A stretch of DNA of 64,000 nt from Gelidibacter salicanalis (GTDB lineage: Bacteria > Bacteroidota > Bacteroidia > Flavobacteriales > Flavobacteriaceae), in assembly GCF_016469035.1 (NCBI RefSeq), contig NZ_JAEHJZ010000036.1, forward strand, positions 112,864 to 176,863, written 5' to 3'. Position numbers and translations under genes: made by a program. The notes under the pieces were generated by a model. The model searched no databases. It was not told the DNA's origin and saw only the letters and a list, made by a program, of their open reading frames with translations. Positions 1 through 27,501 of this stretch are shown piece by piece. Every line of letters begins with the position of its first letter. The first letter of the stretch is position 1.

Positions 1-1088
1 GAACTCATCATGGAGAACACGCCCAAATCATGTAAAATATCTTCTGCAGCAATAGTTTCTGGACGAATACGGGAATCTGCAAATGATACATCTTCTTTTA
101 CGTTTTTATCTAAATGGTGACATACCATTAACATATCTAAATGCTCATCTGCTGTATTTACAGTAAATGGTCTAGTTGGGTTTGTAGAAGAAGGTAAAAC
201 ATTTGGCAAAGCAGAAACGGTAAGAATATCAGGAGCATGTCCTCCACCAGCACCTTCTGTATGGAAAGTATGGATAGTTCTACCATTAATAGCTTTAATA
301 GTGTCTTCAACAAAACCAGATTCGTTTAACGTATCTGTATGAATTGCTACTTGAACATCATATTTATCCGCAACGGTTAAACAACAATCAATAGCAGAAG
401 GCGTAGAACCCCAATCTTCGTGCAATTTTAATCCTAAAACACCTGCTTCAACTTGTTCGATTATCGCAGCCTCAGAAGAAGAGTTACCTTTACCGAACAA
501 ACCAAAGTTCAATGGTAATTCATCCAATGATTCCAGCATTTTCTGAATATGCCAAGCTCCAGGAGTTACCGTAGTAGCCAATGTACCATGGTTAGGTCCT
601 GTACCACCGCCAATCATAGTTGTAATACCGCTATATAAAGCAGTATCAATCAACTGTGGACAAATAAAGTGGATATGCGCATCTATCGCACCAGCAGTAA
701 AAATATGACCTTCACCACCTAAAGCTTCAGTTGAGGCTCCGATATTCATACCGTGAGTCACACCATCCATTGTATTTGGGTTACCAGCTTTACCAATACC
801 TGAAATTTTACCATCCTTAATACCGATATCTGCTTTTACGATACCCCAAAAATCAATAATTAAGGCATTGGTAATTACTAAATCCAATACGCCTTCATCT
901 CTTGTGTGCGTAGCAGACTGAGCCATACCATCTCTTAAGGTTTTACCCCCACCAAATTTATTTTCTTCACCATAAACTGTATAATCTTTTTCAACTTCTG
1001 CAAATAGGTGACTATCTCCTAAACGAACTTTATCTCCCGTTGTAGGGCCATACATTGACGCATACTTTTTTCTATCTATTTTGCTCAT
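1..1088 (-). CDS. ureC: Urease subunit alpha, C-terminus cut by window edge
   Basis: Catalytic subunit of urease, which hydrolyses urea to ammonia and carbamate in the cytoplasm. About 362 of the usual ~570 residues are present. The start [20 protein letters not shown] is the standard UreC N-terminus. Nickel-site residues visible are H138 and H140 (DAHIH), the lysine that is carbamylated, K221 ([12 protein letters not shown]), H250 (AIHTDTLNE) and H276 ([12 protein letters not shown]). The flap histidine lies in MVCHHLD near residue 324. The remaining aspartate ligand would lie just past the left edge. The gene starts 4 nt after ureB, so the two are surely co-transcribed. The reading frame is intact over the visible part. 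Accessory genes ureEFGD, if present, lie beyond the window. Confidence 0.97.
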
Positions 1089-1092
1089 AATA

Positions 1093-1446
1093 TTATTTTT
1101 TTAATTTTAAAGATTTCAATTTCTGTTGTTCGTGTCTCAGACTAAATCCTCTAATCACACAAGAACCCCCAAATCTGATCAACTCTACGTCAGCATTAGT
1201 CTCTCCTGGTTCAAATCTAATCGATAGACCGGCAGGTATGTTTAACCTTTTTTCTTCTGCAGCGGCTCTATCAAATTCTAAAGCAGAATTTGTTTCAGCA
1301 AAATGGTAGTGAGAACCTACCTGTATAGGTCTGTCCCCAGTATTGGTTACTTTAATTTTAGTAACTTTTTTTCCGGCATTTAATTCAATGTCCCCTTTCG
1401 CGAAAATAATTTCGCCAGGAATTATGTAATTTTTTTTTGCGCTCAT
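1093..1446 (-). CDS. ureB: Urease subunit beta
   Basis: Structural small subunit of urease, 117 residues, normal for a separate UreB. Family signatures include [19 protein letters not shown] near the N-terminus, [19 protein letters not shown] at about 46-64, and [18 protein letters not shown] towards the end. The tail is lysine-rich (KLKSLKLKK). It sits between ureA (18 nt gap) and ureC (4 nt gap) in the order ureA-ureB-ureC, the usual three-subunit bacterial arrangement, not the fused ureAB of Helicobacter. Confidence 0.97.
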
Positions 1447-1464
1447 AATTTCTTTTTTTTATGG

Positions 1465-1767
1465 TTAAGCAATAGGATTATGTACAGTAACTAATTTTGT
1501 TCCGTCAGGGAATGTTGCTTCAATTTGTACATCATGTACCATTTCTGCAACACCGTCCATAACGTCTGCACGTTTTAGATAAGTAGTTCCTTCTTTCATT
1601 AAGACGGCCACTTTTTTACCTTCCCGTGCGCCTTCAATAAGCCTTTTTGCTATAAAAGCAATAGCTTCAGGATGGTTCAATTTTAAACCTTTAGCTTTTC
1701 TGTCTTCGGCTACAGTGCCAGCTAAATAAAGCAGTAATTTCTCTTGTTCTCTTGGTACTAAGTGCAT
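1465..1767 (-). CDS. ureA: Urease subunit gamma
   Basis: The smallest urease structural subunit, 100 residues, full length. It begins with [20 protein letters not shown] and carries the family segments [22 protein letters not shown] and [20 protein letters not shown], ending in HNPIA. It is the first of the three structural genes on the minus strand. An 83-nt gap separates it from the urea transporter gene upstream, the largest gap in the block, so an extra promoter or a processing site could lie there. Confidence 0.97.
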
Positions 1768-1842
1768 AATTCTAAAATTTAAATGATTAATAATTCGTTA
1801 ATTAATAAATTCAATAAGTAGCGTTACTACAGTTTTTACAAC

Positions 1843-1859
1843 AATCCCTATCAGGGATT
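1843..1859 (-). other. Short hairpin over the transporter stop codon
   Basis: A perfect 7-bp inverted repeat (AATCCCT, 3-nt loop, AGGGATT) spans the stop codon of the urea transporter. It has no following T-run, so it is not a classical terminator. It may act as an RNA processing or stabilising hairpin between the transporter and ureA. This is weak evidence. Confidence 0.25.
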
Positions 1860-2759
1860 CATCATTCTAACTAATTTTGTGGTATCCGGATTCGATTTGT
1901 CTACATTTGCTCTTACCACAAGCATAATCCAACTTGCAATAATAAAACCTATGGTATAGGTCGCAATAAATTGGCTAAATGCATAGTGAATTAAAACCGC
2001 TAGCAGGGTACCTATGATAACATAGAGAAAGTCAGCAATTTTGGGACCTACAAATGCACAAGCTACCAATATTGGAGAAAAGCCATAGATACCATTGGCA
2101 AGGGTATTGGCGTCTATACCTAAGATATAATGTGCAAACAATGCTCCCACGGTAGCCGCAACAGTAGCATACATTGCAGCTGGCGGATTAGCAATAGCAA
2201 TACCTAAAAAGATTAAAATACCAGTTATAAAGTGGGCACCAAAATTAACTTCGGCCCAAGCAAAAAATGGCGATTGAATAGCAGCTATAGTTGATGTGTA
2301 ATCTGGAAGTGCTGGTGTAGTTTGAACGAGCCCCATAACCCCAAAGTGGCTAAACCCCCAACACGTTACCCAACACGTTACTACAAATGGAAACGTATAT
2401 GCTACCTTACCATTTCTTACAAAAAGATTCATAACTACGGTTGAAATTATAGCAGATACACCTCCTATAATCCAAATTATCGGACTTGATGCATCTACTA
2501 AACCGTAGGTAAATATTGCACACATAAAAGCTAAACTCCCATTAAAACCATATAGACCAAACAAGATATCCTCTTCTTTGTACTTGAGTAACTTTGCCGT
2601 TATAGTGCCTACAATGGCTCCTAATATGCATGCTACCCCTAATGCCCAATGGCTAAAAAACATTCCGATTGTGATAAGCACACCTGCCCATCCGTTATCT
2701 TGAAGAAATATTTGACCTACTCCTACAAAGCTTGTTTTAATAAATTTGGATATTCCCAT
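1851..2759 (-). CDS. Urea transporter (UT family)
   Basis: Inner-membrane urea channel of the UT/Yut family, 302 residues, about ten hydrophobic segments. The family half-repeat is visible twice: LFGLYGFNGSLAFMCAIFTY near residues 66-85, and ANGIYGFSPILVACAFVG near 220-237. In known UTs these repeats line the urea selectivity filter. The position directly upstream of ureABC and downstream of hypB (6 nt gap) supports urea uptake feeding cytoplasmic urease. The alternative, a urea/amide channel of other specificity, is less likely in this context. Confidence 0.93.
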   Translation of the reverse strand: MGISKFIKTSFVGVGQIFLQDNGWAGVLITIGMFFSHWALGVACILGAIVGTITAKLLKYKEEDILFGLYGFNGSLAFMCAIFTYGLVDASSPIIWIIGGVSAIISTVVMNLFVRNGKVAYTFPFVVTCWVTCWGFSHFGVMGLVQTTPALPDYTSTIAAIQSPFFAWAEVNFGAHFITGILIFLGIAIANPPAAMYATVAATVGALFAHYILGIDANTLANGIYGFSPILVACAFVGPKIADFLYVIIGTLLAVLIHYAFSQFIATYTIGFIIASWIMLVVRANVDKSNPDTTKLVRMMNP

Positions 2760-2765
2760 AAAAAT

Positions 2766-3479
2766 TTATTTATAATTGTTTTTGTTCTTTTTCTCCTCAA
2801 GTTTTGTCTGAATCCATTGTATCCAAGCATCCAGTCCTGTGTCTTTTAAGGAAGAAATCTCCAGCACATCAATATCAGGGTTTACTGTTCTTGCATCCTC
2901 TGTTACCGCTTCCACAGAAAATGGTAAATACGGTAACAAATCAAGTTTAGAAATCAACATCAACTCACTGGTCAGAAACATTTTAGGATACTTTCTTGGC
3001 TTATCATCTCCCTCTGTAGTTGAAATAAGGGTTACTCTATAATCCTCTCCCAAATCGAAGGAGGATGGACACATTAAGTTTCCTACATTCTCTATAAACA
3101 ACACATCAGTACCTTCCAGATCAATCAAGTCAATGGCCTGTAATATCATTTGCGACTCTATATGACAGATTCCCCCAGTGACAATTTGCAATGCATTAAT
3201 ACCCGATTCTTTCATCCGTACAGCATCCCTATCTGTTTCTGGATCTGCAACTAGTACAGACATTTTTAATTTACCTTTAAGCAATTCGCCTGTTTTTTGC
3301 ATTAAAGTGGTTTTTCCACTACCAGGAGAAGAACATACATTGATTACCAAAATATCTTTTAACTGTTCTCTAATTTTTTGGGCCACAAAATCATTGGCTC
3401 TTAAAAGATTTAGTGATACATGTTCCGTATCTACACTTCCTGCTGTAATTCTTGATGATTTAGGTTTCGTCGTATTCAT
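2766..3479 (-). CDS. hypB: HypB-type nickel-delivery GTPase
   Basis: SIMIBI-class GTPase for nickel insertion, 237 residues. The P-loop SSPGSGKTT is at about 50-58, the switch/metal-site segment GGICHIES at about 102-109 (C105-H106, the metal pair known in HypB), and ENVGNLMCPSSFDLGE follows. The guanine-specificity motif is SKLDLLPYL. There is no histidine-rich N-terminal extension, so it is a delivery rather than a storage form. It overlaps the 3' end of hypA by 20 nt. Its place inside a urease operon suggests nickel delivery to urease, as HypAB do in Helicobacter. No hydrogenase gene is visible in the window. UreG is related but has a different length and sequence. Confidence 0.92.
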   Translation of the reverse strand: MNTTKPKSSRITAGSVDTEHVSLNLLRANDFVAQKIREQLKDILVINVCSSPGSGKTTLMQKTGELLKGKLKMSVLVADPETDRDAVRMKESGINALQIVTGGICHIESQMILQAIDLIDLEGTDVLFIENVGNLMCPSSFDLGEDYRVTLISTTEGDDKPRKYPKMFLTSELMLISKLDLLPYLPFSVEAVTEDARTVNPDIDVLEISSLKDTGLDAWIQWIQTKLEEKKNKNNYK

Positions 3480-3822
3480 TTTTGTTTTTGAATTTTATTT
3501 CGTTTATAAATAATTCTTCGCCTTGAATGATATTTCTACAAGGATCCTTGCAGCGCTCACAAACAAAACGGTTCATTTTAACTTTAGTTTTAGCCCCACA
3601 TTTACAGGATATTATAACTGGAAGCGTGTCTATAATCAACTTCGTATTATAATATTGTGGGAACTCCATTACAAATGCCTTAAACGCATTTGTCAAAAGA
3701 ATTGGCTGAACATTGCTCAATAAGCCAATCTTTAAATGTATTTCTGAAACTCTTTCAAATTTTTCAGGAAACTCTTCCTCGATTCTTTCGAAAGTATTTC
3801 GAATTAAAAATATTTCGTGCAT
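3460..3822 (-). CDS. hypA: HypA-type nickel metallochaperone
   Basis: Nickel metallochaperone of 120 residues. The N-terminal MHE, whose Met1 amine and His2 bind nickel in HypA, is intact. The zinc site is unusual: C73 and C75 are one residue apart (CKC) where most HypA proteins have CxxC; the second pair C88-x2-C91 is normal and C95 is an additional cysteine. It is the first gene of the leftward block that continues through hypB, the urea transporter and ureABC. Overlap with hypB implies translational coupling. Confidence 0.9.
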   Translation of the reverse strand: MHEIFLIRNTFERIEEEFPEKFERVSEIHLKIGLLSNVQPILLTNAFKAFVMEFPQYYNTKLIIDTLPVIISCKCGAKTKVKMNRFVCERCKDPCRNIIQGEELFINEIKFKNKNEYDET

Positions 3823-22469: not shown

Positions 22470-22690
22470 ATATTTATTTATGGAATCGTAGTACTATTTT
22501 CTGTTTAAGACTTAATTAGCCAGTCAAAGACTTAACGTTCTGTATTACAACTTTTTTACCTGTCCAAATTGCCGTTTTTTGGATTTAAATCCAATCATTT
22601 TTAGGGCAGATATGGATTTGAACGCTATTCCAATTTCAACTTCCTTCAATAAGACCTATCTGCAGACCAGATAAACAAAAAAAAGACAGG

Positions 22691-23326
22691 AATATCCCTA
22701 GATTTAATGCCTCCTTAAAAAACAATCTACAATGGAATTCCGTTGAAACCACTATAACCTCAGGCATAGGCTTGAGGCATGACATTATTGATGATGTTGA
22801 ATTGTCTCATACTTTAAACCGAAAAACAACGCTAGACCATCTGAAATTAGGAGACATCAACCAATCCAATTTGTTTGCCTATGTCAATGTCGATTTCGAA
22901 TTGGGAAATTTCACCATTGCCCCAGCCCTGCGTTTAGATTATTTTAAATTTATGTACGAAGACCAATTGGCAGAAACCTACACCTTGCAAGCAGAGCAGA
23001 AAGCAGTTGTGAGTCCCAAATTAAATTTTCTCTATAATCCTAACCAAAATTTACAATGGTTCTTAAAGACCGGAATTGGATTTCATTCTAATGACACACG
23101 CATAGTGGTAAAGCAAGAAGGTGAGAAAATTTCACCTAGGGCATACGGAGCCGATTTTGGTTCTATTTATAAACCCATTCCAAAATTAGCGGTCAATTCT
23201 GCGTTGTGGAATTTGTTTTCTGAACAGGAATTTGTGTATGTAGGTGATGCTGGAATTGTGGAGCCAAGTGGTAAATCTCAGCGCTTTGGGGCAGATTTAG
23301 GATTGCTTTATCAAGCTGACCTCTAA
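22691..23326 (+). pseudogene. TonB-dependent receptor, truncated remnant
   Basis: About 210 codons of the barrel of a TonB-dependent receptor. The frame is open upstream of the first ATG-like start, reading WNSVETTITSGIGLRHDI, and continues through FAYVNVDFELGNFTIAPALR, KTGIGFHSNDTRIVVK and EFVYVGDAGIVEPSGKSQRF, all typical barrel segments with the GFHSNDTR motif. Signal peptide, plug and N-terminal barrel are gone, and the last strands are missing because a stop follows YQADL. A hairpin terminator follows at 23400. It lies divergent from the ABC importer and may once have served it. Confidence 0.8.
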
Positions 23327-23435: not shown

Positions 23436-23787
23436 AGTTTTAGCTGACAATTATGCTTTCTGAATTCATCATTTCTACACTTAAAAATAAGCTGGCATTA
23501 ATAAAAGACACCGTATAAGTATGATATATAAACTAAAATTTATTCCCATTTAATTTTTATCATAATTCCCCATTTAGTTAGCCTTACTACACCTTGTAGG
23601 ATTATTACCATAGAACTATTTAAGAAATTTAAAAGATATGGAGTACATCTATTGAATAAATCTTAAATTGGTGGGTTAATGATCAGAAGTCCGTCAAATA
23701 ATAGTTGATATTAATTACACTGACTTAAAAAACAACATCGGAATTAAGCAGAAAACGACAATATAAATTTTGTAACTTTGCTTTTAT
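23436..23787. other. Intergenic, upstream of the AT-rich cassette
   Basis: About 350 nt with no gene. It contains the -7-like box of the cassette near its right end. No inverted or direct repeats marking an integration end were identified. Confidence 0.45.
23773..23780 (+). promoter_or_regulatory. -7 box, possible leaderless start
   Basis: TAACTTTG fits the Bacteroidota -7 consensus. It lies only 7 nt before the ATG at 23788, so transcription would begin close to or at the start codon, giving a leaderless or nearly leaderless mRNA. No clear -33 element was found at the usual distance. Confidence 0.5.
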
Positions 23788-24672
23788 ATGGAAATAGCAA
23801 CTGACATAAGTAAAATTCGTAGTTTGTCGCAAATCATTTCGCCATCTAATTTCAAAAAGATTGTACGAGAAGGTGACTGTTATTCAACATTTTACAAAAT
23901 AAAAAAACATATAACAGTTACGGATTCCACAACTAACCTAGACGCAATAAATGTTATTTATAATTCACTCTTAAAAAATTACAGGAATGAATATGTTTAT
24001 AAAAATATACTTACAAACAAATTACTTCTAAAAAAGTATAGTTTAAAAAACACAATAGCATTAAACGAATTCAATATTGGAAAGTCAATTGCTGATTTTG
24101 TTTTGTTAAACGGAGAAGCGAGAGTTTATGAGATAAAAACAGAGCTAGATAATCTTGAAAAATTAGATAAGCAAATATTAGATTACTGCAAATTTGGAGA
24201 CAAAGTTTATATCGTAACTAGTTCAAAATATATTAACAAATTAATGGAACTTTATGTAAATTCCACCCTTGGAATTGTGGAATTAACATCAAGAAATTCA
24301 TTAAAAACAGTAAAAGAAGCAAAAAGTAATGTGTCAACTTTTAATTACGAGACATTATTTAAAACATTAAGAAAACAGGAATATCTAGATTTAATTGAAG
24401 AGTATTATAAATTTATTCCTGATGTCTCTAATACTAGGATTTTTAGAGAGTGTTTAAATCTTGCTAAAGAGATAGAAATTTCATTATTTCAAAAATTAGT
24501 AATTAGGAAACTTAAATCTAGAAATATTTCACATCCAAAAAAGATCAAAGATAAATCTATTCCAGATAGCTTAAAACATATTTGTTATACTTTAGATTTT
24601 TCCGAAAATGAATACGTGGAATTAAAATCATTTCTAAATAAAAATAGCAAAATATGTATTTCCCATATTTAA
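23788..24672 (+). CDS. sce7726-family protein, PD-(D/E)XK nuclease-like
   Basis: A 294-residue protein that resembles the sce7726 family, which is of unknown function. A nuclease-like core is visible: E94 (LNEF), D103 (SIADFVLLNG) and E115-I-K117 (VYEIKTE), then a helix with Q129 (KLDKQILDYCKFGDKVYIV), the usual order of a PD-(D/E)XK fold. The C-terminal half is helical and unassigned. It is first in a three-gene cassette; its stop overlaps the next start by 19 nt. Base composition is far more AT-rich than the fucose region, consistent with transfer. The nuclease activity is inference. Confidence 0.75.
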   Translation: MEIATDISKIRSLSQIISPSNFKKIVREGDCYSTFYKIKKHITVTDSTTNLDAINVIYNSLLKNYRNEYVYKNILTNKLLLKKYSLKNTIALNEFNIGKSIADFVLLNGEARVYEIKTELDNLEKLDKQILDYCKFGDKVYIVTSSKYINKLMELYVNSTLGIVELTSRNSLKTVKEAKSNVSTFNYETLFKTLRKQEYLDLIEEYYKFIPDVSNTRIFRECLNLAKEIEISLFQKLVIRKLKSRNISHPKKIKDKSIPDSLKHICYTLDFSENEYVELKSFLNKNSKICISHI

Positions 24673-25589
24673 GAGGTAAACAATTTGAATTAATTGCTTT
24701 AAGAGAATTATGTGCTTTATTTCCACATGAATTAGACAAAATTTCACCTGTAATTGAACCCGTGAAATCTTCAAGTACTTTAAATACAACACTTACCGAA
24801 TTAGCTAATAGAAATGCGAATTTCAATATTATAATTAACCCAAGAGTCGGTGATTTAAAAAGTCAATACGCTCAAATAGTAGAAATTATTAGTACATCTG
24901 TTCCAGTAGATTACACTAATTATCAATTAGCAGTCATAATTCATCCCAAAACAGAGACAAACATTGAAGTTCTAATTGATTTTTTAAATGGATTAAAATT
25001 AAACTATAATGGAATAACACTAATTCATAAAACTGAAATTAGTAATCATAATATTGAATTATTGAATCGTGAGCTAAATATTGTTTATAATTTAATATAC
25101 TTTTCAAAAACAAGTCGTAGATACTATCGCGAATTTGAACCAGCAACACTAGTAAGTCTTGACGACTACTTCGAAGAGCAATCAAGAAATGCTGACTATT
25201 TAAATCAAGAGAGTGATTTTTCTAATGAGTATAGGTTTTATCAACAAGACGGTTTTGTAGGTTTTTCAGATTTTCTAACAATTGGAGACAACTATTCCGA
25301 ATCTGGGTTCTTACCAAGAGCTGTTGCTATTCATTTAAGTTATGTAGATAACGACAGAATTAAAGTAAAACATTTTGTGTCTGATTCGAATGAAGATGTT
25401 TCAGATATAGGTGGTAAATTTTCAGAGGCAATTAATAAATTGGTTATTTGGTGTGACCAAAATAATAAAAATACTGCTGCGATAAACGTATTTAGAGATT
25501 TGCAACAAAGAGGTCATTTTCCAGGTTTAGGAACTTTAAAAAAACTATCTATAATGAATCACATAGAATTAGTAATTAACAATATTTAA
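24654..25589 (+). CDS. sce7725-family protein (Beta-protein-like)
   Basis: A 311-residue protein beginning MYFPYLRGKQFELIALREL, the opening I associate with the sce7725 family, which is usually encoded next to sce7726. These proteins show relation to the T4 Beta-protein (Pfam Beta_protein) group. Segments such as ISPVIEPVKSSS, IINPRVGDLK and SRRYYREFEP are conserved-looking. Function is unknown; in the family a TIM-barrel-like fold has been suggested, which I cannot verify here. The ATG lies inside the end of the preceding gene and the RES gene follows after 2 nt, so the three are coupled. Confidence 0.75.
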   Translation: MYFPYLRGKQFELIALRELCALFPHELDKISPVIEPVKSSSTLNTTLTELANRNANFNIIINPRVGDLKSQYAQIVEIISTSVPVDYTNYQLAVIIHPKTETNIEVLIDFLNGLKLNYNGITLIHKTEISNHNIELLNRELNIVYNLIYFSKTSRRYYREFEPATLVSLDDYFEEQSRNADYLNQESDFSNEYRFYQQDGFVGFSDFLTIGDNYSESGFLPRAVAIHLSYVDNDRIKVKHFVSDSNEDVSDIGGKFSEAINKLVIWCDQNNKNTAAINVFRDLQQRGHFPGLGTLKKLSIMNHIELVINNI

Positions 25590-25591
25590 TT

Positions 25592-26632
25592 ATGAATTGT
25601 TGCGTTAATTGCTTTACAAGTTCATATCTTATTAGCATTATTAATGGGGATGATAGAACTGGATCTTGTGATTTTTGCAATACCGTTAACACTTCTATTT
25701 ATTCAGCAAGAGAATTGTCACCATTTTTCAGAAACATACTTTCTCTTTATGTTCCTGATGAAAATTCAGATTCTCAAATTTCTGAATCATTAAAAGAAGA
25801 TTTTAATGTAATAAGTGAAATTGTTGAAAGTCCTACTGACCTATTGAAAGCTATTTTTGAGGATGAAATTGAAGTTTTTGAATCAATTTTCAATAGCAAT
25901 GTTTCCTTAACACGCAAGCCATTTCTAGAAACTCAGGCAGATAACATACATAATGTTTGGAACGAATTTAAAAAAGAAATTAAATTTGTAAATCGTTACC
26001 ATATTCAGAACACAATTGACCTAAAAAAACTAGAAACGTTTTTTCTGCACGAGAGCTTTTATAGAAACATCAAAAAAGGGAGGATTTTTTTTAGATGCAG
26101 AGTTTCAGATAAAAGTGGATTTCCTTGCGAGCAAATGGGAAACCCACCAATTGAATTAGCTTCAAGCGGCAGAGCAAACCCAAAAGGAATTTCATACCTG
26201 TACGTAGCTGATAGCCTTGAAACATCAATGTATGAGACTAGAGCATCACTATTTGACTATGTAACTGTTGGTGAATTCAAACTAACGGAAGATATTAAAA
26301 TATTAAATCTTCGAAATCCAAAAGACGACCCGATTTATTGGTCAGAAATTGAGGAAATTGAAAATTATTTAATATATATTCCATTCATTCAAACACTTCA
26401 AAAGGAACTGTCTTTACCCATTAGAAAACGTGACCAAACATTAGATTATATTCCTACCCAATATATATCGGAATTCATTAAATCTTTAGGATTTGATGGT
26501 GTGGAATATCAAAGTTCATTGAATTCAGATGGTTACAATATCGCCATTTTTAATCCAAAGAAATTAGAATGTTTTAAAACAGATGTTTACGAAATTAAAG
26601 ATATCCAATTAACACACGGAAAAATAAAATAA
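25592..26632 (+). CDS. RES-domain NAD-degrading toxin-like protein with zinc ribbon
   Basis: A 346-residue protein. The N-terminus has a zinc-ribbon-like pair C4-x2-C7 and C26-x2-C29. The RES domain (about 155-335) shows FFRCR (R168, R170), SGRANPKGISYLYVADSLET (about 192-211), the glutamate of MYETR (E215) and the terminal FDGVEYQSSLNSDGYNIAIF. RES toxins such as those of the RES-Xre systems degrade NAD+. There is no Xre/antitoxin gene beside it; the sce7726 and sce7725 genes take that place. It probably acts as an effector of a defence or toxin module. The enzymatic role is inferred from motifs. Confidence 0.8.
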   Translation: MNCCVNCFTSSYLISIINGDDRTGSCDFCNTVNTSIYSARELSPFFRNILSLYVPDENSDSQISESLKEDFNVISEIVESPTDLLKAIFEDEIEVFESIFNSNVSLTRKPFLETQADNIHNVWNEFKKEIKFVNRYHIQNTIDLKKLETFFLHESFYRNIKKGRIFFRCRVSDKSGFPCEQMGNPPIELASSGRANPKGISYLYVADSLETSMYETRASLFDYVTVGEFKLTEDIKILNLRNPKDDPIYWSEIEEIENYLIYIPFIQTLQKELSLPIRKRDQTLDYIPTQYISEFIKSLGFDGVEYQSSLNSDGYNIAIFNPKKLECFKTDVYEIKDIQLTHGKIK

Positions 26633-26865: not shown

Positions 26866-27501
26866 ATGAATTCCAATCCAACACCGTCTGATCAAGACAT
26901 TTCATTAACATTGCCCGTTCAAATAGGCTTTGAAGTCCTTGATACCTTCCTGAAGAAAAAATTTAGGGATACCAACATCAGTCATAAAGACGCGAAGGGC
27001 AACAGCTCTAACTATTTTAGAATCCTAGATCTGAAGCTTGCCGAAAGTGAACACAATGCGTACAATCTCTGTCTAAAGATGCGCCTACAACCGCTCACGC
27101 TGCTATTCAATAGGAATACCGTTGAAGTGTCGGTCCATGCGGATTTAAAGTTGAATGTCGACACCCAAAAATTATATGTGGAAGCCTATAACATGGACAG
27201 TAGCGGAAAAAATTGGGTTACTAATAACCTGCTAAAATCTGTACTGAATACCTTTATTTATAAAAAAATCATCAACGCCTTGAGCCTCGATCTAATGCCA
27301 ATTGTAAAGGAAAAGATCGAAATTATAAATGCTCAGTTGGCGTCTACTCTAAAAACGACAAAGGGTGTTTCCATCATGGGGAATGTCGCCAATTTTACCA
27401 TTAGTCATTTTGAGATCAAAAAAGATGTGATCTGGGTGCTCATCCATACCCAAGGTTGGTGTGTGATCAGCATTGACGATTTAGAGTTTGGAGCAGATTA
27501 A
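26866..27501 (+). CDS. Uncharacterised protein, DUF4403-like half
   Basis: A 211-residue soluble protein with no signal peptide. Its alternating beta pattern (ISLTLPVQIGFEVLDTFLKK near the start, GNVANFTISHFEIKKDVIWV and WCVISI near the end) resembles one half of DUF4403/TULIP-type lipid-binding proteins, which are usually about twice as long. This is a weak resemblance. It is not fused to the AT-rich cassette: composition returns to the local average and there is a 233-nt gap. It is convergent with the GH95 gene. Confidence 0.5.
   Translation: MNSNPTPSDQDISLTLPVQIGFEVLDTFLKKKFRDTNISHKDAKGNSSNYFRILDLKLAESEHNAYNLCLKMRLQPLTLLFNRNTVEVSVHADLKLNVDTQKLYVEAYNMDSSGKNWVTNNLLKSVLNTFIYKKIINALSLDLMPIVKEKIEIINAQLASTLKTTKGVSIMGNVANFTISHFEIKKDVIWVLIHTQGWCVISIDDLEFGAD

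Follow-up and report, generated by a model that had tools for sequence, protein, structure and literature searches.

A cassette of three genes, here called A, B and C, was analysed within the window (the whole stretch of DNA under study, 64 kb in length). We hold, with somewhat more confidence than doubt, that it is a mobile three-component abortive-infection module directed against phages, a RES-effector branch of the gop-beta-cII type.

Organization of the Locus

Gene A (23788..24672, forward strand, as for all features below) encodes a 294-aa protein of the sce7726 family, gene B (24654..25589) a 311-aa protein of the sce7725 family and gene C (25592..26632) a 346-aa protein in which a zinc ribbon and a HEPN_RES_NTD1 domain precede a RES domain. 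The ORF coordinates agree with the three rightward, coupled genes described in an earlier note on this DNA: the end of A is the start of B over 19 nt (24654..24672), and a 2-nt gap separates B from C. Translation of A and B is likely coupled through this overlap, and a -19 overlap of the two genes was also found in many related loci.

The -7 box that the earlier note had placed close to the ATG was recovered as TAACTTTG (23773..23780), 7 nt ahead of the gene A ATG. It is of the TAnnTTTG type, which we take to be the -7 consensus, and a leaderless or near-leaderless message for the cassette is plausible. Boxes of this type lie at most 40 nt from the gene A start in 40 of 68 loci, many of them close relatives, against 1.9% in shuffled sequence; 27 of the 40 end 4–8 nt ahead of the start.

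The cassette is also as AT-rich as had been noted: its GC content is 0.282, that of the 5 kb on either side 0.391 and 0.406, and the lowest value among 555 other cassette-sized segments of the 64 kb was 0.328. On the left it is bounded by a truncated TonB-receptor ORF (22772..23326); a relative (G007) that yielded no B shares 87% identity with the DNA at 22584–23314. On the right lies a DUF4403-type gene (26866..27501), matched in all 10 genomes of the genus. The decayed mobile elements suggested to lie nearby were not confirmed: the truncated receptor ORF was seen, and a Pfam scan of 20 proteins of the window revealed no transposase or integrase. These neighbors are transport, receptor and sugar-hydrolase genes, with no known defense family among the 20.

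Families and Conserved Residues of the Three Proteins

The family assignments proposed earlier (sce7726, sce7725 and RES) were borne out by HMM scores above cut-off in every case. Protein A passes NF033832 (sce7726; E 3.6e-49, 167.2 bits, curated cut-off 70 bits). Restriction and repair nucleases are among its closest folds, and the range aligned to them (residues about 68–180, 23989..24327) holds the PD-(D/E)XK core. The D-ExK-Q core residues, including the D103, E115 and K117 pointed out before, are invariant in 60 A sequences. Protein A is thus a PD-(D/E)XK-fold protein with its core residues in place and may act as a nuclease. Comparison with cII of phage P4, which is itself labeled sce7726 in the P4 record, gave a sequence match of 2e-13 and a profile-profile E of 1.1e-22, and on this sequence evidence A is homologous to cII.

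Protein B passes NF033831 (sce7725; E 2.1e-86, 290.5 bits, curated cut-off 60 bits); it matches this NCBIfam family of its own and is not matched by Pfam Beta_protein (PF14350). Alignment of B with the beta family by hhalign gave E 1.2e-5 and 3.4e-6 (probability 81–88%), the stronger result spanning only the first 100 columns, while unrelated pairs gave E 0.11–0.13. A B profile matched 2 of 16 beta-type proteins (4e-6 and 1.4e-5) and missed the other 14. The NCBIfam sce7725 model scored one beta protein at 20.9 bits, which proves nothing since an unrelated-looking protein (L104) scored higher, at 23.5 bits. These comparisons suggest that B is a remote homologue of the P4 beta family. A search of viral contigs with P4 beta returned only three near copies of P4 beta.

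Protein C begins with a CxxC...CxxC zinc ribbon (C4–C29, 25601..25678), whose cysteines C4, C7, C26 and C29 are each conserved in at least 90% of 51 C sequences. The HEPN_RES_NTD1 domain follows at residues 21–141 (25652..26014; PF18870, E 5.8e-7, 30.3 bits, cut-off 27.4) and the RES domain at residues 187–326 (26150..26569; PF08808, E 1.5e-16, 61.2 bits, cut-off 23.2). In the 51-sequence alignment R194, Y204, E215 and S308 are invariant and N316 is at least 90% conserved, so both the zinc ribbon joined to a RES domain and the retention of the catalytic residues, as claimed before, hold in the alignment. Alignment of C with ParT was weak (E 0.48). From its Pfam domains, conserved residues and this weak alignment, C is a predicted NAD+-consuming effector. 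No clear relative was found in PDB sequence searches with profiles of A, B and beta or with C alone, and a search of viral contigs with C alone gave no relative of C.

Relationship to gop-beta-cII

The gop-beta-cII system of phage P4 confers protection from lambda and P1, and its Gop protein is toxic when beta is missing, according to the accessible part of PMC9122126, the only paper in the open-access literature in which we found the system by name. The two systems are alike in that cII is an sce7726 member, as is A, beta a likely remote homologue of B, and a toxin gene, gop, is the neighbor of beta just as C is of B. They differ in the third gene, RES here and gop in P4, with no detectable similarity between C and Gop (hhalign E 0.3), and in orientation, as P4 beta and cII are convergent whereas A, B and C are co-directional. 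Plain membership in gop-beta-cII was rejected on these two grounds. As B appears remotely related to beta and A is a cII homologue, gop-beta-cII is the closest described system and B the best candidate for a restraining partner.

A gene of the sce7726 family was also found convergent with a beta-family gene in 16 sampled loci. Six of the beta-type genes were identified by Pfam and nine by our own profile built without them; the remaining one (L273/L178) was recognized by eye and by a profile containing it, and the one at L272 is in pieces. With the cassette these loci share the pairing of sce7726 with a protein of beta type. Unlike the cassette, none of the 16 showed a C-type gene in its retrieved stretch, and in 9 of them a motif count, made with no control for chance, placed an HExxH gene (M78/ImmA-IrrE-like) immediately upstream of beta. 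Given RES beside the tandem pair, the M78-like gene in convergent loci and the lack of a C-type gene there, the third partner of the nuclease-like/beta-type pair seems to be exchangeable. We tentatively suggest, giving it a chance just short of even, a cross-phylum immune class built on one sce7726/cII plus sce7725/beta pair with RES as the third part in tandem loci and an M78-type protein or Gop in convergent loci, the class and its third parts being judged together.

Proposed Mode of Action

From the families, fold, conserved residues, homologies and distribution of these proteins we infer a scheme of sensing, restraint and NAD+ loss that would end in protection. C would be the effector, whose RES domain, once freed, would stop growth by splitting NAD+ through phosphorolysis, the reaction known from characterised RES toxins. 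B would hold C inactive, probably via the zinc-ribbon/NTD1 region of C, as beta prevents Gop toxicity. A would work with B and act as the trigger; most likely it would bind, or cut, phage DNA or a replication intermediate and thereby loosen the hold of B on C.

Conservation of the Three-Gene Unit

To the question raised by the earlier note, whether the three families co-occur beyond chance, the neighborhoods of B give a clear answer. Around B in 79 named cellular loci from many phyla, A adjoins in 79 and C in 76, and A and B are co-directional in all 79; these loci were drawn from the best 80 of 362 relatives and are biased to close relatives. Fragment copies among them are those of A in L049 (123 aa) and L082 (contig start) and of C in L064, L075 and L089 (contig ends) and L079 (228 aa). 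In a Bacteroidota sample not ranked by similarity, B occurs with A in 14/14 and with C in 13/14 cases. A Pseudomonadota sample, likewise not ranked, gave three B genes beside A, all three with C; because the search for B was confined here to neighbors of sce7726, B without A would escape. Pooling both phyla, C follows B in 16/17 loci. Chance co-occurrence was therefore rejected, with A and C beside B in nearly all cellular loci examined. On plasmids, the coordinates place C next to B in 10 of 11 records. The three proteins have correlated distances (r 0.91–0.92, 0/2000 permutations, 51 loci), a correlation that shared descent would also yield.

Among 32 loci in viral contigs, A was present in 28 and C in 20, ten of the latter being near-identical contigs. 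The unit is thus near-constant in cellular genomes and looser in viral contigs, and A-B pairs without C occur at three viral-contig loci (L124, L125 and L127). Such pairs would suit a direct restriction system, in which A and B cut phage DNA as the main effector and C fires if cutting fails; the invariant core of A and its fold, near restriction and repair nucleases, point the same way. However, C accompanies B too constantly in the sampled cellular loci to be a likely optional backup, and neither the annotation of three plasmid loci nor the scanned window neighbors show a methyltransferase next to the cassette. One Pseudomonadota locus (L255), on the other hand, has an upstream ORF that by our own reading resembles a cytosine methyltransferase, and type I restriction genes lie near the cassette in two E. 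coli loci. We regard direct restriction as unlikely.

Seen from C, the link is loose. Of 187 plasmid records matching C, only 10 have B beside it, and HEPN_RES_NTD1 adjoins sce7725 in only 5 of the 14 genomes that have HEPN_RES_NTD1. Stand-alone NTD1-RES proteins exist without A and B, and on a Glutamicibacter plasmid a C-like gene that retains the key residues was found, with neither A nor B in the stretch retrieved. Taken together, this orphan gene, the stand-alone proteins and the plasmid C-like genes without B suggest that C is tolerated without B. This would favor activation over restraint: C would be inactive alone, and an A-B complex on phage DNA would bind the zinc-ribbon/NTD1 region and switch C on, with B as an adaptor. 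B also varies least among the three proteins (median pairwise distance 0.63 vs. 0.68–0.70), as would suit a scaffold. Yet the P4 toxin is harmful without beta, as reported in the accessible part of PMC9122126. In one E. coli locus C is annotated as frameshifted while A and B are intact, which fits either model. All in all, we consider activation rather unlikely, if the most credible of the alternatives, and prefer restraint of C by B.

Mobility and Genomic Neighborhood

The cassette was found in only 2 of 10 genomes of the genus, at different sites, so that a core gene of the genus was rejected, in line with the earlier expectation that it is not fixed in close relatives. It is present in 18 of 5426 E. 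coli. Five of these 18 loci were opened; in all five the cassette is cargo of a mobile element and has defense-gene neighbors, and type I restriction genes lie nearby in two. B occurs on 11 plasmid records, and the cassette on an ICE and in mobilisable elements. The cassette is accessory and mobile. Location in defense islands, which the earlier note proposed to weigh, was thus seen in the five opened E. coli loci, whereas the Pfam-scanned neighbors of the cassette in the window included no known defense family.

As a flank test, 148 of 200 candidate ORFs (51 loci) gave 101 PADLOC families, against 39 for 145 Bacteroidota control ORFs (left from a draw of 148 out of 164 after removal of the three longest). 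This is only suggestive, since the counts refer to models rather than proteins, many models are redundant and 25 of each set are listed, 21 of the 25 control models listed being PD-T4-6.

Presence on plasmids, an ICE and mobilisable elements would also be expected of an addiction module of the toxin-antitoxin (TA) type that stabilises plasmids, ICEs and genomic islands, any effect on phages being incidental, and it is chiefly through TA pairs that RES domains are known (PMC11535050, in its accessible part). The cassette nevertheless has three genes, one of them of nuclease fold, and no Xre gene beside it; moreover, the homology to a proven antiphage system (accessible part of PMC9122126) and the defense genes around the opened E. 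coli loci speak against addiction as its role. We judge this explanation improbable, the least credible of those considered, and retain the abortive-infection module.

Comparison With Known RES Proteins

The RES domain of C resembles those of RES-Xre pairs (NatRT, accessible part of PMC11535050, and ParT): by our own mapping it has the R, R, Y, S and N positions listed for NatT, and its E aligns with the E of ParT. Unlike these pairs, C has no adjacent Xre gene, as had been remarked for the whole cassette, and adds a zinc ribbon, NTD1 and two near-constant partner genes. A RES-Xre pair was rejected, as the neighbors of C are sce7725 and the DUF4403 gene.

According to the part of the NatRT paper available (PMC11535050), no RES TA system has been implicated in immunity, and NAD+-depleting defenses are listed as TIR or SIR2. 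If our reading is true, immunity through a RES NAD+ phosphorylase would be met for the first time in the RES branch, next to the NADases of TIR and SIR2 type, with NAD+ phosphorolysis as a further predicted chemistry among NAD+-depleting defenses. It would give a role to sce7725 and sce7726, families that NCBI names by number only, and to RES proteins unpaired with Xre, all of which are here linked to an antiphage system of phage P4 that is already proven. The natural E. coli cassettes make direct testing possible in laboratory strains.

The earlier note had further held the combination of the three families to be undescribed. This needs to be qualified. Among the open-access papers listed on RES with phage defense or immunity, no title or opening of an abstract described the A-B-C cassette, and the DefensePredictor paper (PMC13092281), in its accessible part, contains no 'sce77', 'gop' or 'Beta family', its 'RES' being journal abbreviations. 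The architecture of zinc ribbon, HEPN/RES-NTD1 and RES that C shares was described in 2013 (PMC3710099), with an RNase role predicted for RES; unlike in the cassette, sce7725 and sce7726 go unmentioned in the accessible text of that paper. RES, sce7725 and sce7726 are named together, without a function, in a P. aeruginosa element (PMC9394441, accessible part). In a sister genome, the site homologous to that of the window cassette holds an ORF that by reading is nuclease-like.

Organization and Conservation of the Three-Gene Cassette

Three genes on the + strand of the window, encoding an sce7726 protein (A; 23788-24672; NCBIfam sce7726, E 3.6e-49), an sce7725 protein (B; 24654-25589; NCBIfam sce7725, E 2.1e-86) and a zinc-ribbon protein with HEPN_RES_NTD1 and RES domains (C; 25592-26632; Pfam RES, E 1.5e-16; HEPN_RES_NTD1, E 5.8e-7), are coupled, A and B overlapping by 19 nt and B and C being 2 nt apart. 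This confirmed the arrangement and the families proposed in an earlier note, as well as the AT-richness of the cassette (28.2% GC vs. 39.1% and 40.6% in the flanks). Upstream of A lies a TAACTTTG box, the end of which is 7 nt from the ATG, and the surrounding genes encode transport, receptor and sugar-hydrolase functions. Elsewhere in the window, an ordinary urease cluster (3-3822, - strand) encodes the three enzyme subunits (alpha, beta and gamma) together with a urea transporter, and includes genes of the metal-insertion type.

The earlier statement that the combination is not known to be described calls for qualification: RES, sce7725 and sce7726 are listed together, without function, in the accessible text on a Pseudomonas aeruginosa element (PMC9394441). 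In the literature excerpts mentioning sce7725 or sce7726, neither is given a function; PMC8248536 is a further paper that names one or both families. The zinc ribbon-NTD1-RES architecture was described in 2013 as a predicted RNase (PMC3710099, in excerpt), and the available text of the NatT paper states that an immunity role has been implicated for no RES toxin-antitoxin system (PMC11535050).

A scan of GTDB contigs with the B alignment yielded 362 relatives, of which the best 80, representing 79 loci, were kept; partners were called with our own profiles (E up to 1e-5), and some gene copies were fragments. Among these best-scoring loci, A was found upstream of B on the same strand, overlapping or within 100 nt, in 79/79; in 76/79, C lay downstream at a distance of up to 163 nt. 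By record title they belong to Flavobacteriaceae, other Bacteroidota, Mycolicibacterium, Marinilactibacillus, Thiorhodococcus, Nitrospinota, Sphaerochaeta, Fibrobacter and others. C was missing at a contig edge (L050) and at two loci with other genes in its place: a Schlafen AlbA_2 protein by Pfam (L062), and ORFs that by eye appear DprA-like and phosphoribosyltransferase-like (L063). These two are possible effector swaps. Across 51 loci, the pairwise distances calculated for the A, B and C proteins were correlated with one another (0.92, 0.91 and 0.92; 0/2000 permutations as high), as expected from joint inheritance.

As the scan favors close relatives, two evenly drawn phylum samples were added. 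In Bacteroidota, sce7725 was above the cut-off in 14 of 395 genomes, with A adjacent in 14/14 and C in 13/14; in Pseudomonadota, sce7726 was above it in 12 of 378, with B in three and C beside all three. Pooled, B was accompanied by C in 16/17 loci. C also adjoined B, by coordinates, in 10 of 11 plasmid records with B (three of the 10 opened). Viral contigs found with B carried A in 28/32 loci and C in 20/32, ten of the 20 being near-identical. Seen from C, the association is loose: of the 187 plasmid records with a match to C (E up to 1e-5), 10 contain B, and 5 of 14 Bacteroidota genomes with HEPN_RES_NTD1 have it adjoining sce7725.

Relationship to the gop-beta-cII System of Phage P4

Of the three proteins, PADLOC models recognized A alone, as 'cll', which we take to be the cII of the P4 gop-beta-cII antiphage system, in agreement with the annotation of the P4 record. 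There, cII is named sce7726 and faces beta, which adjoins gop. A aligned to P4 cII at 2e-13 by sequence and 1.1e-22 profile to profile. In hhalign, B matched the beta family at E 1.2e-5 (298 columns, probability 81%) and, with a deeper alignment, at E 3.4e-6 (100 columns, 88%), vs. 0.11-0.13 for unrelated pairs. Of 16 beta-type proteins, two also gave a direct match to the B profile (4e-6 and 1.4e-5).

Gene context agrees with this relation. The 27 Bacteroidota sce7726 genes above the cut-off include 14 in tandem with B, seven facing a beta-type gene and six with neither partner in the DNA examined; the 12 from Pseudomonadota divide into three and nine, so that a B- or beta-type partner accompanies 33/39. 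Seven plasmid records matched P4 beta, and sce7726 faced it in 4/4 opened.

P4 has gop and convergent beta and cII, whereas the cassette lacks both features, and it is therefore not a gop-beta-cII member; by homology, it should nevertheless work in a similar way. The third component of P4 is Gop. No C-type gene was present in the stretches fetched around 16 beta loci. Directly upstream of beta in nine of these, where beta faces sce7726 (L261, L262, L263, L265, L266, L267, L269, L270 and L272), lies an HExxH (M78/ImmA-IrrE-type) gene, overlapping or within 5 nt in eight. Pfam confirmed Peptidase_M78 for two (L180 and L183, the genes of L267 and L269), the other seven being assigned by motif. 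These trios possibly represent a third-part branch of gop-beta-cII. Another combination is seen at L273 (3934-6433; the genes of L178), with a SocA/Panacea antitoxin-like gene upstream of sce7726 and a facing gene that is beta-like by eye.

Proposed Mode of Action and Departing Loci

We favor a model in which A together with B would form a sensor and B would restrain C until a trigger, C once released being predicted to remove NAD+. It is favored because Gop is toxic without beta (PMC9122126, in excerpt), B adjoins C and the catalytic residues are retained. Two observations count against this model and fit activation of an otherwise inactive C by A-B at least as well: some A-B pairs of viral contigs lack C, and C-like genes exist where neither A nor B is present.

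The former occur in the IMG/VR contigs L124, L125 and L127; a pair of this kind, lacking RES, may be self-sufficient or may oppose a RES cassette of the host. The latter include stand-alone zinc-ribbon/NTD1/RES-like proteins of ~390-500 aa (L140-L143 and L145; NTD1 by Pfam, RES by eye), with neither A nor B in the stretches fetched around them. Profile searches did not detect sce7726 beside the sce7725-type genes of L129-L131 and L133. In L133, B is preceded by an ORF that looks nuclease-like by eye and gave no clear match in Pfam or NCBIfam, and in an Enterococcus plasmid (L226) by an unnamed ORF.

Distribution and Mobility

The cassette is not an ordinary core element of close relatives, a case that the earlier note had set out as speaking against its proposal: B occurs in 2 of 10 genomes of the genus. 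In the second, G009, the cassette lies on a different contig and its proteins are 45-53% identical to those of the window. Among the best 80 of the 362 relatives, the nearest B is from Winogradskyella (92%, vs. 53-55% in G009), which suggests horizontal transfer. At the site homologous to that of the window cassette, G009 carries a different ORF of 885 aa and 28.5% GC (L218, 5199-7856), with a nuclease-like start by eye and a weak orc1/cdc6-type match below the cut-off; this position is possibly a small hotspot. In G007, another genome of the genus, the two flanks are present and enclose other genes.

A PADLOC test of the cassette flanks was only suggestive of a defense context. The unit is present in 18 of 5426 Escherichia coli genomes, always chromosomal, and each of the five loci opened has tyrosine integrases and a relaxase in its stretch. 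Defense-type neighbors within 14 kb of these five were a KwaB-like gene (three loci), type I restriction genes (two, one with McrBC), and AbiE and BREX genes, SIR2 and PLD genes, and reverse transcriptase, caspase and TIR genes (one each). At one opened locus RES is annotated as frameshifted, with A and B intact.
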